DNA of 64,000 nucleotides from Halovivax ruber XH-70 (GTDB lineage: Archaea > Halobacteriota > Halobacteria > Halobacteriales > Natrialbaceae): the NCBI RefSeq assembly GCF_000328525.1, contig NC_019964.1, forward strand, positions 744,001-808,000, written 5' to 3'. The position numbers and the translations under genes were made by a program. The notes beneath the pieces are model-generated. The model did not search any database, was not told the origin of the DNA, and was given only the letters and a program-made list of their open reading frames with translations. The number at the start of each line of letters is the position of its first letter. The first letter of the stretch is position 1. This document shows, one piece after another, positions 16,435 to 61,358 of the stretch.

Positions 16435-16574
16435 TTCGTTCGGCGGACGGGTTCTGAATCGGTTGAGCCGTGATCCGCTGGATGCTGAGTCTCGAATGGC
16501 TGCGAATTCGCGATGCGCCTAGTTTCTGTGTGCGGTATTGTCACCCGTTCCGCGAGCGAACGCAGTGAGCGAGC

Positions 16575-16727
16575 GGGCCGACGACCCCACCGTAGGTGGG
16601 GGAGGAGTGCTTTTCATCAAAGCTAAGCGGAAGCTTCGCTTCCGCGAGGTCCAAAAGAGCCTCCGGCTCTTTTGAAGATTTTGCCGAGGGCCGGCTCCGC
16701 CGGCCCGCAGCGCAAAAGTTTGTAGTG
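16575..16727 (+). ncRNA. structured repeat element, copy 1 (hairpin-rich, unannotated)
   Basis: This gene-free stretch holds four near-perfect hairpins: CCCCACC/GGTGGGG (16585-16601, GTA loop), GCGGAAGC/GCTTCCGC (16627-16645, TTC loop), a 10-bp stem (16652-16674, TCC loop) and GGGCCGGC/GCCGGCCC (16688-16706, TCC loop). Conserved blocks shared with copy 2 (56181-56321, minus strand) are GGGCCGACGAC, GGAGGAGTGCTTTT, ATTTTGCCGAG and GCAGCGCAAAAG. TTTTGC can pair with GCAAAA, enclosed by CAAA/TTTG. Whether it acts as RNA or is a mobile DNA repeat is not known. Confidence 0.5.
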
Positions 16728-55986: not shown

Positions 55987-56057
55987 GCGCGGATGGTCTA
56001 GTGGTAGGACCTGAGCCTTCCAAGCTCATGGCGGGGGTTCAAATCCCCCTCCGCGCA
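55987..56057 (+). tRNA. tRNA-Gly(TCC)
   Basis: The acceptor stem is GCGCGGA (55987-55993) with TCCGCGC (56050-56056), discriminator A at 56057, and no encoded CCA. The anticodon arm is TGAGC-CTTCCAA-GCTCA, giving anticodon TCC, which reads GGA/GGG. The T arm is GGGGG-TTCAAAT-CCCCC. The D loop is short (AGTGGT type). All helices pair well. It is 71 nt with no intron. Confidence 0.95.
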
Positions 56058-56182
56058 TTGCTGCTGCGAGCAAATCCGCGAGCAGCAGCAATCGTCCGAG
56101 GGATTTGAATGAGAGAAGTCGCAGCCCGCGCAACGAAGTGAGCAGGACCGTCTTCGCGTGGTTCAAATCCCCCTCCGCGCAT
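56036..56182. repeat. duplicated 3' end of tRNA-Gly (att-like direct repeat)
   Basis: The 23 bp from the T loop to just beyond the tRNA end (56036-56058) occur again, identical, at 56160-56182. The 101 bp between contain a 10-bp hairpin stem (56058-56067 with 56082-56091) and an inverted copy of part of the T arm (GGATTTGAA, 56101-56109). This is the pattern left by tRNA-targeting integration, but no integrase is present. Confidence 0.7.
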
Positions 56183-56321
56183 CAACCTTTTGCGCTGCGC
56201 TATTTCCGCGCCGGGAGCGCTATCGCGCTCCACGGCGCGTAGACGCTCGGCAAAATGTTGATCAAAAGCACTCCTCCTTCCTCGCCGCTCGCTTCGCTCG
56301 CTTTGAGTCAGTCGTCGGCCC
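56181..56321 (-). ncRNA. structured repeat element, copy 2
   Basis: Read on the minus strand, it contains the same blocks as copy 1: GGGCCGACGAC (56311-56321), GGAGGAGTGCTTTT (56264-56277), ATTTTGCCGAG (56246-56256) and GCAGCGCAAAAG (near 56187-56198). ATCAAC-A-TTTTGC pairs with GCAAAA-G-GTTGAT as a 6+6-bp stem with one mismatch, enclosing a long GC hairpin (56207-56239). Its 3' end abuts the duplicated tRNA-Gly end. Expression is unknown. Confidence 0.5.
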
Positions 56322-56600
56322 ACTCACTCGGCCTTCGGCCTCGCTCGTGGTAGAGTACAGTACAGGGTCAGCCACCGGAATTCAGGTCCGTAATTCCGTA
56401 GCGGCGCAATCGCTTGGGTTCACTCCCTCCTTCATACTAACCGTTGTGTGGGTAGTCGTATCAGCGAAATCCTTTTCCGAATTGTAGCCGCTTGCACTGT
56501 GGATCTTGTTCGCTGGATGTCCATCATGTTCTGTACTTTGTGTTCAACCAACGAACGCTCACCTCGCTTCATTCTACTTATTCCGGACAAAACTAGTTAG
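56322..56600. other. gene-free, AT-richer spacer
   Basis: No reading frame here looks coding. Composition becomes more AT-rich after about 56380, as expected for a recombined or acquired segment near a tRNA gene. I see no complete tRNA, transposase or clear terminal inverted repeat. Confidence 0.45.
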
Positions 56601-57224: not shown

Positions 57225-58388
57225 ATGGGTCGGAAGAAGGATCGCCGACGGAACCGCAGAAGCGGCGAGCGACGGGAGCGTGGGCGGGACGACCGTCGCG
57301 AAGAAAGCCGTGAAGACGACCAGCAGGCGTTCGCTCCCATGGGAATGCCCGATGCGCCGATTCCCGACGCGCCAGTCCCGGACGCGACACCACCCGATGC
57401 CACGCCGTCGGTCGGCCTGCCAGCAATGGAGAACGTGGATCCGGTTCCGCGGACAGACCGGGTGCCGATGGCCAGTCGCGGCTACGGGCACGAGGCGCAG
57501 GAACACATCATGCGCGCGACGGAGGGGACGGAGACGGATCCGCACGACATCCCCGATCCGGTGCTCGACGTACTCGAAACTGGTTCTGGGAAATCGCTCG
57601 ACGCCTCGATTCAGCGCGCGTTAGAAGAGCGGATGGACGCCGACTTCTCTACTGTGGAAATCCACACGGGTCCAGAAGCGGCGACGGCTGCCGACGCCAT
57701 CGACGCACGAGCGTTCACCTGCGGTAACGCCATCGTGTTCAACGACGGCGAGTACGACCCGGAGAGCGCAGAGGGGCAGCATCTGCTGGCGCACGAGTTG
57801 GCGCACGTGAAACAACAGACCGGGGCGGTGATTTCGATGATGCCGCAGCCGGACGCCGACCTGGAGATCGATCCCGATCCGCAGTTAGAGCGGGAAGCGG
57901 AGCAGGCGGCCGAGGAGGCGCTGTCGGGCGAGGAACCGCTGATCGTCAACCGGCTGGGCACGAACGTTCACATCCAGCGGGCCGAGAAAACACGTCGAGA
58001 AGTCCTCAACGGCGACTTTTCGACGACTGAAATCGCCGCAGGTATCGAAGAAGCTTCCCTGTTGAGCGTTGATCCCGGCCAATTCCGCGACGCGTACAAG
58101 TTCGCGGAGCACGCAGCTACGCTCAGTGGGACCAATGCAATTGTCCAACCGCTAGTCTCTGAATTCGGACTCAGTCGGCCGGAGGCGTTGGCAGTGACGT
58201 TCGCGGTCGGCGGATCAATCCATGTTGGAAAGGATCGACTCCACCGCGAAGACATCTATCTGACGCTCGAAATCGCCCGGCTGTTGGGCGTTGAGGAGCG
58301 GGCTATTACGCTCTTCGAGAGGTTAGATATCGAGATACCAGAGGACAAGGAGCGTCCGGAAAGTGTTCCAGCGCCCAACGAGGTGTGA
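57225..58388 (+). CDS. full-length DUF4157 (eCIS_core) protein, putative effector
   Basis: 387 residues. The first 40 are Arg/Asp/Glu-rich and disordered, followed by a Pro-Asp-Ala repeat stretch (MPDAPIPDAPVPDATPPDAT). Residues about 124-245 are the DUF4157 domain: an ARAFTCGNAIVFNDGEYDPE segment and HELAH (190-194), a zincin-type HExxH site. The region from about 253 to 387 is a distinct, mostly helical C-terminus. DUF4157 proteins are known companions of contractile injection systems and of polymorphic toxins, and often process or carry variable C-terminal cargo. The partner starts 2 bp after its stop. Confidence 0.85.
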   Translation: MGRKKDRRRNRRSGERRERGRDDRREESREDDQQAFAPMGMPDAPIPDAPVPDATPPDATPSVGLPAMENVDPVPRTDRVPMASRGYGHEAQEHIMRATEGTETDPHDIPDPVLDVLETGSGKSLDASIQRALEERMDADFSTVEIHTGPEAATAADAIDARAFTCGNAIVFNDGEYDPESAEGQHLLAHELAHVKQQTGAVISMMPQPDADLEIDPDPQLEREAEQAAEEALSGEEPLIVNRLGTNVHIQRAEKTRREVLNGDFSTTEIAAGIEEASLLSVDPGQFRDAYKFAEHAATLSGTNAIVQPLVSEFGLSRPEALAVTFAVGGSIHVGKDRLHREDIYLTLEIARLLGVEERAITLFERLDIEIPEDKERPESVPAPNEV

Positions 58389-58390
58389 CA

Positions 58391-59428
58391 ATGGAGGCCA
58401 GAATTGGTGACGAAGACGAAGAGGGAGTGGGTTTGAGAATAATTGATAACAACGGTGTTAGTCACGGAATCCACGTGAGTTTTGACGGGGAAATCACCTA
58501 CCACGAGCAGGACGCGTACCCTACTAGCGCGACGAAGCAGACAGCCGACGAGTCGGTCCGCCTGCGACAGGCGCAAGAATATGCCAGGTACATGGTCCAG
58601 CGCGAATTGGGGTATCAGACGCTCCAACCACGGTTAACGCCGGAATGGCTACCGTACGCACTGGGTTCGGTGTTCGGACTGTCGTTCGACGCGTTCGAAG
58701 ACCGTTTCGGACACTACGCCCAGCAGTACCACAGCGCGCTTCGGCCAACGATCGATCCGGTTATTGAGTTGCCTGACGAAGATGCCCCGGTCGGAGGGAT
58801 CACCTACCGTGCGGATGTGTTTCTCGGGCTGGACTTCGAGGCCTACCTCGACGATCCGGCAGCGGCGTCACCAGTGGACGCAGTTGCGGGGATCACAGAC
58901 GCATACGCTTTGTACGAGGTTCTGAGCGAGGAACTGTCCGACCGGATCACCGACGACGCTGCAGCGATCAAAGAGGTGTCGGCGCTGGATCTACAATACC
59001 AGCGACGGGCCAGCGACGGACGCGTCGAGGAACCCGTCGTGGGCGAACGGAGCTACACCAGCGAGGGGCCGCCCGACGCCCAGTTGCAAATGACGCCGCC
59101 CCAAACTAGCATCGAGTCTACCCTTACGACCGAAATCATCCAGGGACTGGTCTGTCACCATCTCCAGTGCCAGGTCCGTGACGCCTACCTCCGCCTGGGG
59201 CTCGAACCGCCGGAACCGTTCCGGGTACTCGGCCAGGGTCTGGCCGAGCAGACAATGCACTACCAGCACGCCGACTGCTACCCGGAGTACCACCTGACTG
59301 ACGCCGATATCGAGGGGTACCGCCAGCCAGGCGTCGAAACCGGTGCACTTGGAGTCGGGGAGATCGAGCCCGGTTCTGAGCTGTCGTCGTTGTCGACCCG
59401 CCTCAAGCGTGCACTGTTCGGCGGGTGA
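58391..59428 (+). CDS. DUF4157 cassette partner, copy A
   Basis: 345 residues from the ATG at 58391, 2 bp after the stop of the DUF4157 gene. It is soluble and acidic, with no signal peptide. Its start (GVGLRIIDNNGVSHGIHVSF then DGEITYH) and end (VCHHLQCQVRDAYLRLGLEP then PEPF) are shared with the protein at 60462, so the two are paralogues. The central part differs. Always following a DUF4157 gene, it is a candidate immunity protein, chaperone or loading factor. I recognise no named family. Confidence 0.75.
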   Translation: MEARIGDEDEEGVGLRIIDNNGVSHGIHVSFDGEITYHEQDAYPTSATKQTADESVRLRQAQEYARYMVQRELGYQTLQPRLTPEWLPYALGSVFGLSFDAFEDRFGHYAQQYHSALRPTIDPVIELPDEDAPVGGITYRADVFLGLDFEAYLDDPAAASPVDAVAGITDAYALYEVLSEELSDRITDDAAAIKEVSALDLQYQRRASDGRVEEPVVGERSYTSEGPPDAQLQMTPPQTSIESTLTTEIIQGLVCHHLQCQVRDAYLRLGLEPPEPFRVLGQGLAEQTMHYQHADCYPEYHLTDADIEGYRQPGVETGALGVGEIEPGSELSSLSTRLKRALFGG

Positions 59429-60459
59429 CCGTGGCCGATCCCTGCTGGCATCTCTGCGAGAGGAACGACACCCGGGCGTTCACCTGCGGCAACGCGATCG
59501 TCTTCAACGATGGGGAGTACGACCCCGAGAGCGCGGAGGGACAGTACCTGCTCGCTCACGAGTTGGCCCACGTGAAGCAGCAGACGGGCGGCGCGAACGG
59601 AGTGAGGGCCGCCGGAGTAGCGAGCGGGAGCGAAGCGACACACGAGACGGGCGCGGCGATCTCGATGATGCCGCAGGGGGACGCGGATTTAGAGATCGAT
59701 CCGGATCCGCAGTTGGAGCGCGAGGCTGATCAGGCGGCCGAAGACGCGCTGTCCGGGGAGGAACCGCTGGTCGTGGACCGGCTCGGTACGGACGTTCACA
59801 TCCAGCGGGTACCGGAAAACAAGGTGTTCGAGGCGATGGCGCTGTTCGAGGCCGAGAACGAGAGCGGCGAGATCAGCGACTTCCGTGAGGACCAGAACGA
59901 AAATCGGCTTGCGTATCTGCACGGAGTGGCTCAAGACGTTATCGAGAAGCAGCAGAAGGAATCCGAGCTAGCCTCGAAACAGGAGTTACAGAATTCGCCG
60001 TCGAAGGCTGCACAGGAGGTGGCCAAACGCGGCCCGTCGCAGGCGGATATCAAGACGCAAATCGAGAACCTCAAATCGGACATCGATGTCGACCTGAGCG
60101 ACGTGGCGCTGACGGAGGATCAGCGAGAGTTGCTCGACGGTAACGTCGAGATCAGCAAGTGGGACAAAGCGTCGTGGGGGTTGATCAAGAAGATCCTGTC
60201 GGCGACGACGATTCCTGCGCTCATTTCGTTAGCTAACCTGGGTTCGAGTGCCGCCGATTACGACATCGACAAACGTGGGTCACAGACGATCGGCCAATTT
60301 CGACAAGGCAAGATAACGAGTCTCGACGATCTGAAGGATATCTGGCGACAGACGAATGGGTCGTTGGAGGAGCGTGCAAAACAGATCGAACAGGAGATTC
60401 GGGAGGGCACGTGGCTCGAGGATCAATCACGTGGCCTGTCACACAGCACACAAGAATAA
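59425..60459 (+). CDS. N-terminally truncated DUF4157 protein with different C-terminus
   Basis: 344 residues from a GTG at 59425 overlapping the partner's stop (GTGA); a GTG at 59431 is an alternative. It begins near the middle of the DUF4157 domain: residues 17-55 (RAFTCGNAIVFNDGEYDPES to HVKQQTG, with HELAH at 45-49) match the full-length protein from residue 162 onward. After a 21-residue insert they continue to match until VHIQR. From about 129 the C-terminus is unrelated, with a helical linker and a hydrophobic stretch (LIKKILSATTIPALISLANL). It lacks the 160-residue N-terminal region, so it may be an orphan cassette. Confidence 0.75.
   Translation: MTVADPCWHLCERNDTRAFTCGNAIVFNDGEYDPESAEGQYLLAHELAHVKQQTGGANGVRAAGVASGSEATHETGAAISMMPQGDADLEIDPDPQLEREADQAAEDALSGEEPLVVDRLGTDVHIQRVPENKVFEAMALFEAENESGEISDFREDQNENRLAYLHGVAQDVIEKQQKESELASKQELQNSPSKAAQEVAKRGPSQADIKTQIENLKSDIDVDLSDVALTEDQRELLDGNVEISKWDKASWGLIKKILSATTIPALISLANLGSSAADYDIDKRGSQTIGQFRQGKITSLDDLKDIWRQTNGSLEERAKQIEQEIREGTWLEDQSRGLSHSTQE
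59582..59653 (+). repeat. 63-bp in-frame insertion with 9-bp direct repeats
   Basis: AGACGGGCG occurs at 59582-59590 and again at 59645-59653. The full-length gene has only one such site. The inserted 63 bp contain GCGAACGGAGTGAG and AGCGGGAGCGAAGCGA, resembling the GAGCGAACGCAGTGAGCGAG flank of the structured element at 16.55 kb. Confidence 0.65.
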
Positions 60460-60461
60460 TT

Positions 60462-61358
60462 ATGGATGCAACTATCACAGGAGAGAAGGACGATGCAGTT
60501 GGGTTAAGCGTTATTGACAATGCTGATGTGGAGCATTTGGTCGAGATGGAGGCTGATGGGGAGATTTATCATCACACTTGCGACGAAATAGCGAACAACC
60601 CGGCTAAACGGACACGAGAAGAGTGTGAGCGCGTCGATCAGGCCCGTCGATTCGCCCGCTGGCACGTCTACCGCGAACGCGGATACGACACGGTTCCACC
60701 AACCGAAAACCCCGACCGCCTCGTGGCTGGCCTGCTGGCCATCACCATGCTCTCCGAAGGCGAGTTCGACGACTATTTCGGCGATCTCCACGCCAAACTT
60801 CGTCGCCACTACGACGGATTCGGCGTCGAATTGCCGTTCGACGACGCAGATCCCGACGACGCCATCGTCTACCAGAAGGACGTCTACCTGCAACCCGATC
60901 CGGTCGATTTCGACCCGCCGGTCCTCGAGCAATTCCTCGGTCGGTTCGACGGGGATGCCGATTCACCGGCCGTCGGCGACGGCGACATCCCGTTCGACGA
61001 GATGGACGAACTCGATTTCGAGCTCGAAGCCGTCTCGGGGATGCACGTGTTGCACAACGACGGGCAGGGGAACGAGCAGGTATCCCACGGCGAACACCCA
61101 CTCGATCGCGACCCGGACGTTCGCGTCGAACTGATGGCGTTCGATCCTGCGTCGGTTGACTCGTTCCAGCACTACGTCGTCTCGAATCTCGCCTGCCAGA
61201 TTCGCGACCGGTTCCTGCTGATGGGCGTGAAACCACCGGTTCCGTTTCGCGCACAAGGGTGGGGAACCTACGAGGGCTTCCAGAGCCAGAAGTTCTGCTC
61301 GTTGTACGACGAGTACTGGTCGAGCGAAGCGGCTGTCTCGTCCTGGGAACCCTGGTAA
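60462..61358 (+). CDS. DUF4157 cassette partner, copy B
   Basis: 298 residues from the ATG at 60462, 2 bp after the truncated DUF4157 stop. Shared features with copy A are VGLSVIDNADVEHLVEMEAD, the central FARWHVYRERGYDT and DDYFGDL segments, and the C-terminal ACQIRDRFLLMGVKPPVPFR. It lacks about 45 residues found in the middle of copy A. It is soluble and acidic. The same gene order as copy A indicates duplication of a two-gene module. The function is unknown. Confidence 0.75.
   Translation: MDATITGEKDDAVGLSVIDNADVEHLVEMEADGEIYHHTCDEIANNPAKRTREECERVDQARRFARWHVYRERGYDTVPPTENPDRLVAGLLAITMLSEGEFDDYFGDLHAKLRRHYDGFGVELPFDDADPDDAIVYQKDVYLQPDPVDFDPPVLEQFLGRFDGDADSPAVGDGDIPFDEMDELDFELEAVSGMHVLHNDGQGNEQVSHGEHPLDRDPDVRVELMAFDPASVDSFQHYVVSNLACQIRDRFLLMGVKPPVPFRAQGWGTYEGFQSQKFCSLYDEYWSSEAAVSSWEPW

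Follow-up and report, generated by a model that had tools for sequence, protein, structure and literature searches.

What does the second copy of the tRNA-Gly(TCC) 3' end record? Within the window studied here, a stretch of 64,000 nt of Halovivax ruber XH-70 (below, the window genome), a first-pass annotation had described 23 bp of this tRNA end recurring 124 bp downstream, and had read them as the scar of a tRNA-targeting integration. The repeat is exact (56036-56058 and 56160-56182, with 124 nt from start to start and 101 bp between the copies). The strong hairpin and the inverted piece of the T arm that had been described between the copies were both recovered (Table 1). Hairpin A has a folding energy of -21.4 kcal/mol (z -4.6), and folding indicates a second hairpin closed by T-bar and T'. 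In the lowest-energy RNA fold of 55987-56182, the tRNA's 5' acceptor strand is base-paired to the distal copy's acceptor strand, so that the entire unit lies inside an enlarged tRNA. ARAGORN found tRNA-Gly as the sole tRNA of the window. When Rfam models were run at their gathering scores, only tRNA was matched in the window, with no match to rtT or to any known RNA family.

Table 1. Features of the tRNA-Gly(TCC) locus in window coordinates.
Feature	Position	Strand	Basis
tRNA-Gly(TCC), host gene of the array	55987-56057	+	ARAGORN; Rfam tRNA, 71.6 bits
T: tRNA positions 53-73, T-loop GTTC to discriminator base; source of the duplicate	56037-56057	+	
Hairpin A: stem, tandem G.A, short stem, loop; begins directly behind the tRNA	56058-56091	+	
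Linker; family-wide weak complement to tRNA positions 69-73	56092-56099	+	
T-bar, GGGATTTGAA: reverse complement of tRNA positions 54-63, tRNA-specific	56100-56109	+	
Hairpin B: covarying stem, U.U mismatch, variable tip	56110-56160	+	
T': exact second copy of tRNA positions 53-73; G56160 and T56182 match too	56161-56181	+	
Separate structured element abutting T'	56183-56345 (right end approximate)	.	

A past integrative element or satellite that used the tRNA-Gly end could have left T' as an att copy. Duplication of a tRNA 3' end is the usual att signature, and tyrosine recombinases are present. In the 64-kb window, however, the 21-nt core T recurs only as T' at up to three mismatches (0 in 100 shuffles), and the further att copy that had been suggested is therefore absent inside it. 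The first-pass annotation had also held that retention at this tRNA in all relatives, regardless of the downstream DNA, would count against such a scar, and retention is largely what we saw. Among named organisms, Halovivax asiaticus has the closest relative of the methyltransferase encoded nearby (93% identity). This species keeps the unit and the start of the abutting structured element, at about 93.6% identity, up to window position 56304; the DNA beyond about that point differs except for one 422-bp match. The unit thus persists while downstream DNA changes. Retention is not universal: the tRNA-Gly(TCC) loci of 74 named relatives, sampled via the methyltransferase and hence selected independently of the unit, carried one or two copies in 38 cases and none in 36.

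The structured element had likewise been tied to the duplicate, possibly as a satellite using tRNA ends. It does begin within about 4 nt of T', but as the cause of the duplicate it was rejected, since units at other tRNAs mostly lack it. Its other window copy lies near 16.5-16.7 kb (about 16500-16720) on the minus strand and the window holds no second tRNA, indicating that the element is a repeat in its own right, with the core AACCTTTTGCGC ... GATCAAAAGCACTCC. It lies directly against the last copy at Gly-TCC and also, slightly altered, at Leu-TAG in both Halovivax genomes; one 15-mer of it stands unchanged behind the Leu-TAG array of H. asiaticus. Further downstream, 57225-61358 holds two tandem gene pairs, the first gene of each with an eCIS core domain (PF13699); the partner genes matched no Pfam family.

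The suggestion to check other tRNA genes for a similar arrangement proved key. BLAST of the spacer and copy against their own genome gave 34 matches, many of them weak. A tRNA scan of 22 BLAST loci found a tRNA at 21, representing 15 different tRNA genes, and side-by-side comparison revealed tandem units of a common plan behind them. Each array reads tRNA(T) - hairpin A - T-bar - hairpin B - T' - next unit, the unit being gene-less, about 124 bp long and often tandem. In the window genome, 23 of 42 tRNA genes are followed by a copy of their own 3' end (Rfam-model set, first threshold). Under a rule that also requires the inverted piece, applied to the ARAGORN set plus the intron-bearing tRNA-Arg, units stand behind 24/42 tRNA genes in the window genome, 25/42 in H. 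asiaticus and 22/40 in a third Halovivax genome, of whose 41 tRNA genes 40 were taken in. The duplicated Gly tRNA end belongs to a large family of hairpin repeat arrays that are anchored at tRNAs and extend across this haloarchaeal order. One integrase with one core cannot serve a gene-less unit family behind more than half of the tRNA genes. This family, together with the mere 101 bp between the copies and the lack of a cargo element, refutes a single-locus integrase scar, and we regard an ordinary integrase scar of any kind as very improbable. What stands of the original claim is a duplication targeted to the tRNA 3' end; no large element left it as a scar, and it instead forms the 3' border of a hairpin unit found at many tRNAs.

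From 18 units a covariance model with 17 base pairs was built for hairpin B, and it matched 27 places in the window genome. At 26 of these the match lay on the 3' side of a listed tRNA, on the same strand and within 900 nt, and the 27th stands behind the intron-containing tRNA-Arg(CCG). Matches were likewise placed 3' of tRNAs in three other genomes, at 38/41, 27/31 (two of the four misses being opposite-strand echoes) and 9/13 (two misses being B-like hairpins without T arms). At E 1e-4 across 392 genomes of the phylum, the model was matched in 76 of 81 genomes of its own order (the window genome included) and in 0 of 311 elsewhere; the filters were strict, leaving absence from the five negative genomes of the order uncertain. 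Among 50,697 records of known phages there was no blastn match at E 0.01, ruling out carriage of the units by known phages, and a 26-letter pattern picked up 10 stretches in viral contigs of which none matched the covariance model. A plasmid search returned seven records. Six were inspected: one match lay beside a tRNA-Glu-like sequence, and in the other five a B-like hairpin was seen but no tRNA. At about 1350-1455 of a Natrinema thermotolerans plasmid, a unit stands behind a tRNA-Glu-like sequence that contains an insertion. Hairpins closely resembling B, without T arms or a detected tRNA and in another inverted context, were seen on haloarchaeal plasmids and one chromosome; hairpin B may be a module of several repeat families. 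We found no description of the arrays in the open-access literature, subscription papers lying outside the search.

Each copy matches the tRNA that it follows. Identity of T' to its own tRNA was 0.94-0.99 at positions 54-73 in the 149 of 185 copies with at most two mismatches, a selection that inflates the values inside the copy and not those at its edges. Random tRNAs gave 0.36-0.60 at nine of the ten positions 64-73 and 0.87 at position 72. Outside the copy, identity was near background, at 0.74 against 0.67 for random tRNAs at position 52 and 0.60 against 0.52 at position 74. These sharp falls define the duplicated stretch as tRNA positions 53/54-73, across tRNAs of different sequence. Mismatches within the copies were more frequent at 64-73 than at 54-63 (97 vs 39, p 7e-7), as for a scar with an unconstrained outer half. 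Copies reading TTCACAATC, with one additional C, were found at the Lys, Thr-CGT, Phe and Pro-TGG arrays.

T-bar also follows its own tRNA. It is complementary to positions 54-63 and tRNA-specific at 57, 59, 62 and 63 (position 57: 0.84 with the local tRNA, 0.61 with other tRNAs), positions 54-58 being partly conditioned because the anchors were picked on a TTGAA-like motif. In 159 units selected by a fair match to 54-63, a weak extra complement to positions 69-73 was detected (3.24 vs 3.01 matches, 0/500 permutations), and complement to 64-68 showed no tRNA-specific match (104/500 permutations).

The two hairpins differ in their mobility. Among 109 units from the three Halovivax genomes, 29 of 60 similar B pairs joined different tRNAs, against only 1 of 29 similar A pairs (threshold 0.8; the trend holds at 0.6 and 0.7 too). 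One A module can also be paired with different B modules at one tRNA across species. These results indicate that hairpin B, lying between T-bar and T', is the exchanged part.

The arrays also changed between sister species of Halovivax, whose tRNAs are mostly identical: unit number differed at many loci. In the Phe, Glu, Met and Cys arrays of the window genome and H. asiaticus, shared units were retained and clean extra units were tRNA-proximal. The order of two units was swapped at Lys-TTT, Ser-TGA, Val-CAC and Ser-CGA and, judged by eye, at Arg-GCG between H. asiaticus and the third genome. Tandem duplicates were present at Met-CAT of H. asiaticus. Rapid change at positions 64-73 of shared units (21/120) seemed apparent, although on inspection the figure was inflated by small indels.

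Such changes raise the reading that there is no mobile element at all: inverted template switching and unequal recombination would have made T-A-Tbar-B-T, and gene conversion would homogenise the copies and swap B between tRNAs. The order swaps of whole units, the tandem duplicates and the movement of B without A are all in keeping with this, as is the order T - T-bar - T, which is that of a small inverted triplication whose turns each hold a hairpin. By contrast, recombination on its own does not supply the hairpin B that a fresh array has at its T-loop end, and requires an independent start at each of many tRNAs; nor does T-bar copy T in full, positions 64-68 having no tRNA-specific match. 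We consider recombination as the sole source unlikely.

Two further comparisons bear on how arrays grow. Filled and empty sites differing by exactly one unit plus copy were found at Ala-CGC, at Leu-CAA and at Gly-TCC of two Natrinema hispanicum strains. In the Leu-CAA unit the unusual T-loop of that tRNA is copied exactly, and T-bar fits it. The Ala-CGC difference is probably a precise loss in the window genome, since the A module of this site is common to H. asiaticus and the third genome. In arrays of at least two units, the first copy resembled the tRNA sequence more closely than the last did in 22 of 48, less closely in one and equally in 25, and last copies averaged 1.02 mismatches (118 copies) against 0.30 (54 copies) for the rest. 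Recombination could yield both the degenerate last copy and the tRNA-proximal extra units.

The explanation we favour, tentatively and with a confidence just short of even, is that gene-less hairpin units insert at tRNA 3' ends, duplicate the target and are later reshuffled by recombination. Insertion at a tRNA gene's 3' end would create a unit and duplicate a fixed target of 20-21 bp, the cuts falling between positions 53 and 54 and between 73 and 74. As T-loop and acceptor are constant in length, these cuts would suit every tRNA and each copy would fit its own. Newcomers would enter beside the tRNA, making the last copy the oldest. Recombination between T copies would then delete, duplicate and reorder units, and hairpin B would be exchanged via the short T-bar/T' flanks held in common. 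Insertion with fixed-target duplication would account for the own-tRNA fit, the constant ends and the most worn last copy. Several observations count against it. Recombination between T copies would produce identical filled and empty sites; simple transposition of the whole unit would not move B independently of A; and plain target duplication leaves a T-bar fitting each tRNA unexplained. For the matched T-bar and the movement of B, back-copying or later exchange would have to be invoked. We found no insertion in the act, no enzyme and no intermediate, and the strand preference of the fold would equally suit an RNA role.

That strand preference brings in a different reading, in which the units are working RNA. 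Hairpins A and B would form in the trailer, cleavage by the tRNA 3' processing enzyme would follow each T', and selection would act on tRNA maturation or on released small RNAs. Position 73, where the copies stop exactly, is the tRNA 3' processing site, and tRNA and unit together fold with a z of -6.0. Covariation was seen in hairpin B: in 81 distinct aligned matches, an alignment fitted to the model and including two opposite-strand echoes, 13 of 17 pairs of its arms changed on both sides (112 cells vs 30.5 in shuffles, 0/500 as high). Most of this covariation comes from the inner stem, which is not tRNA-derived. The strand evidence on the units is mixed. With echoes and duplicates removed (179 of 200 rows kept), G.T exceeded A.C mismatches in the outer stem (72 vs 31), as an RNA role would have it, whilst in the inner stem the two were equal (11 and 12), which argues against it. 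The tRNA-sense strand folds better as RNA than its complement for hairpin A (121 vs 30) and for T-bar-B-T (117 vs 35). The units behave in this much like tRNAs themselves (72 vs 30), and the difference probably comes largely from G.A pairs that turn into T.C on the other strand. An RNA role must also contend with the 18 of 42 tRNA genes in the window genome that have no unit, under the rule including the inverted piece, and with unit number and order differing between sister species despite mostly identical tRNAs. We judge it unlikely as the main explanation, on a par with recombination alone.

Candidate enzymes for insertion were sought in ten array-bearing genomes. Cas1 was present in four, the window genome and H. 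asiaticus being among the six without it; an IS200-type (Y1) transposase was present in six, a reverse transcriptase (PF00078) in none and tyrosine recombinases (PF00589) in all ten. As each of the first three is missing from several or all of these genomes, none is an obligatory present-day driver. Cas1 and the IS200 transposase were accordingly rejected in that role, as was retro-insertion by an RVT_1 enzyme. All three Halovivax genomes have a tyrosine recombinase match in a 339-residue open frame (G000:C1:1410172, G362:C6:148904 and G250:C1:3165307), which is a candidate. A more specific proposal, which we hold to be rather improbable, is a haloarchaeal machinery for which the tRNA gene serves as both the leader and the first repeat while the array grows: it would recognise the T-loop, cut at fixed distances, insert a hairpin unit, duplicate positions 53-73 and copy the T-loop back as the inverted piece. 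If true, units would be acquired with a geometry like that of CRISPR, but with neither Cas1 nor foreign spacers.

If insertion with target duplication is right, essential genes in most haloarchaeal genomes are accompanied by a repeat system that is undescribed and changes fast. In the three counted genomes its arrays stand behind over half of the tRNA genes and are reshuffled between species with mostly identical tRNAs. They would confuse calls of att sites and genomic islands at tRNAs, the Gly(TCC) duplicate being an example, and would provide a natural setting for asking how a repeat keeps in step with its host gene's sequence. Their study may bring to light a new recombinase or a new layer in the biology of tRNA trailers.

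Several known systems resemble the arrays in part. An integrase att scar also repeats the tRNA 3' end; unlike these units, it marks one element with its own core, at one tRNA and with cargo between the copies, compared with 101 bp and 24 of 42 tRNAs here. The tyrT repeats of Escherichia coli, source of an rtT RNA that is co-transcribed with the tRNA and freed during processing, are reportedly 178-bp units at one locus, each with about 19 bp of the tRNA. They too are said to be tandem units downstream of a tRNA, each with its 3' end; the present arrays differ in occupying many tRNAs per genome, and they contain a covarying hairpin as well as a T-loop piece in inverted orientation. In CRISPR arrays, growth takes place at the leader end and the last repeat is degenerate. 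Here the last copy is degenerate and extra units are tRNA-proximal, but recombination could give the same, and six of the ten array-bearing genomes have no Cas1. Integron attC sites form a hairpin with an outer box, an unpaired spacer, an inner box and a variable tip. Their layout and the reordering of their arrays are alike, and the PF00589 recombinases in all ten genomes are a match at family level, not specific to IntI. Integron cassettes should move whole, however, and a cassette model was rejected since the A and B modules dissociate and the unit contains no gene. A retroelement is at odds with the lack of PF00078 reverse transcriptase in all ten genomes. IS605-type elements and PATEs make no target duplication and obtain TnpA from the genome; the units here have a duplication, and the Y1 transposase is absent from four of the ten.

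Casposons and short haloarchaeal elements offer parallels in targeting and in form. Casposases insert at the extreme 3' end of tRNA genes, with duplication of the target (PMC6977970). Casposons have terminal inverted repeats, a Cas1 enzyme and a duplication of 14-15 bp which in the Methanosarcina mazei case extends past the tRNA (PMC6977970). The units share the target at the tRNA 3' end and its duplication; they differ in a 20-21-bp duplication stopping at position 73, in their gene-less related hairpins and in that six of the ten array-bearing genomes have no Cas1. Haloarchaeal PATEs, MITEs and SMRs are short gene-less mobile elements with palindromes or inverted repeats (PMC3119063, available part). 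In that part PATEs and SMRs have no target duplication and are not placed at tRNA ends, tRNA duplications being named only for prophages and a possible integrative plasmid (PMC3119063). The units described here are, like PATEs and SMRs, short gene-less haloarchaeal elements, and, unlike what that part describes for PATEs and SMRs, they sit at tRNA ends with a duplication.
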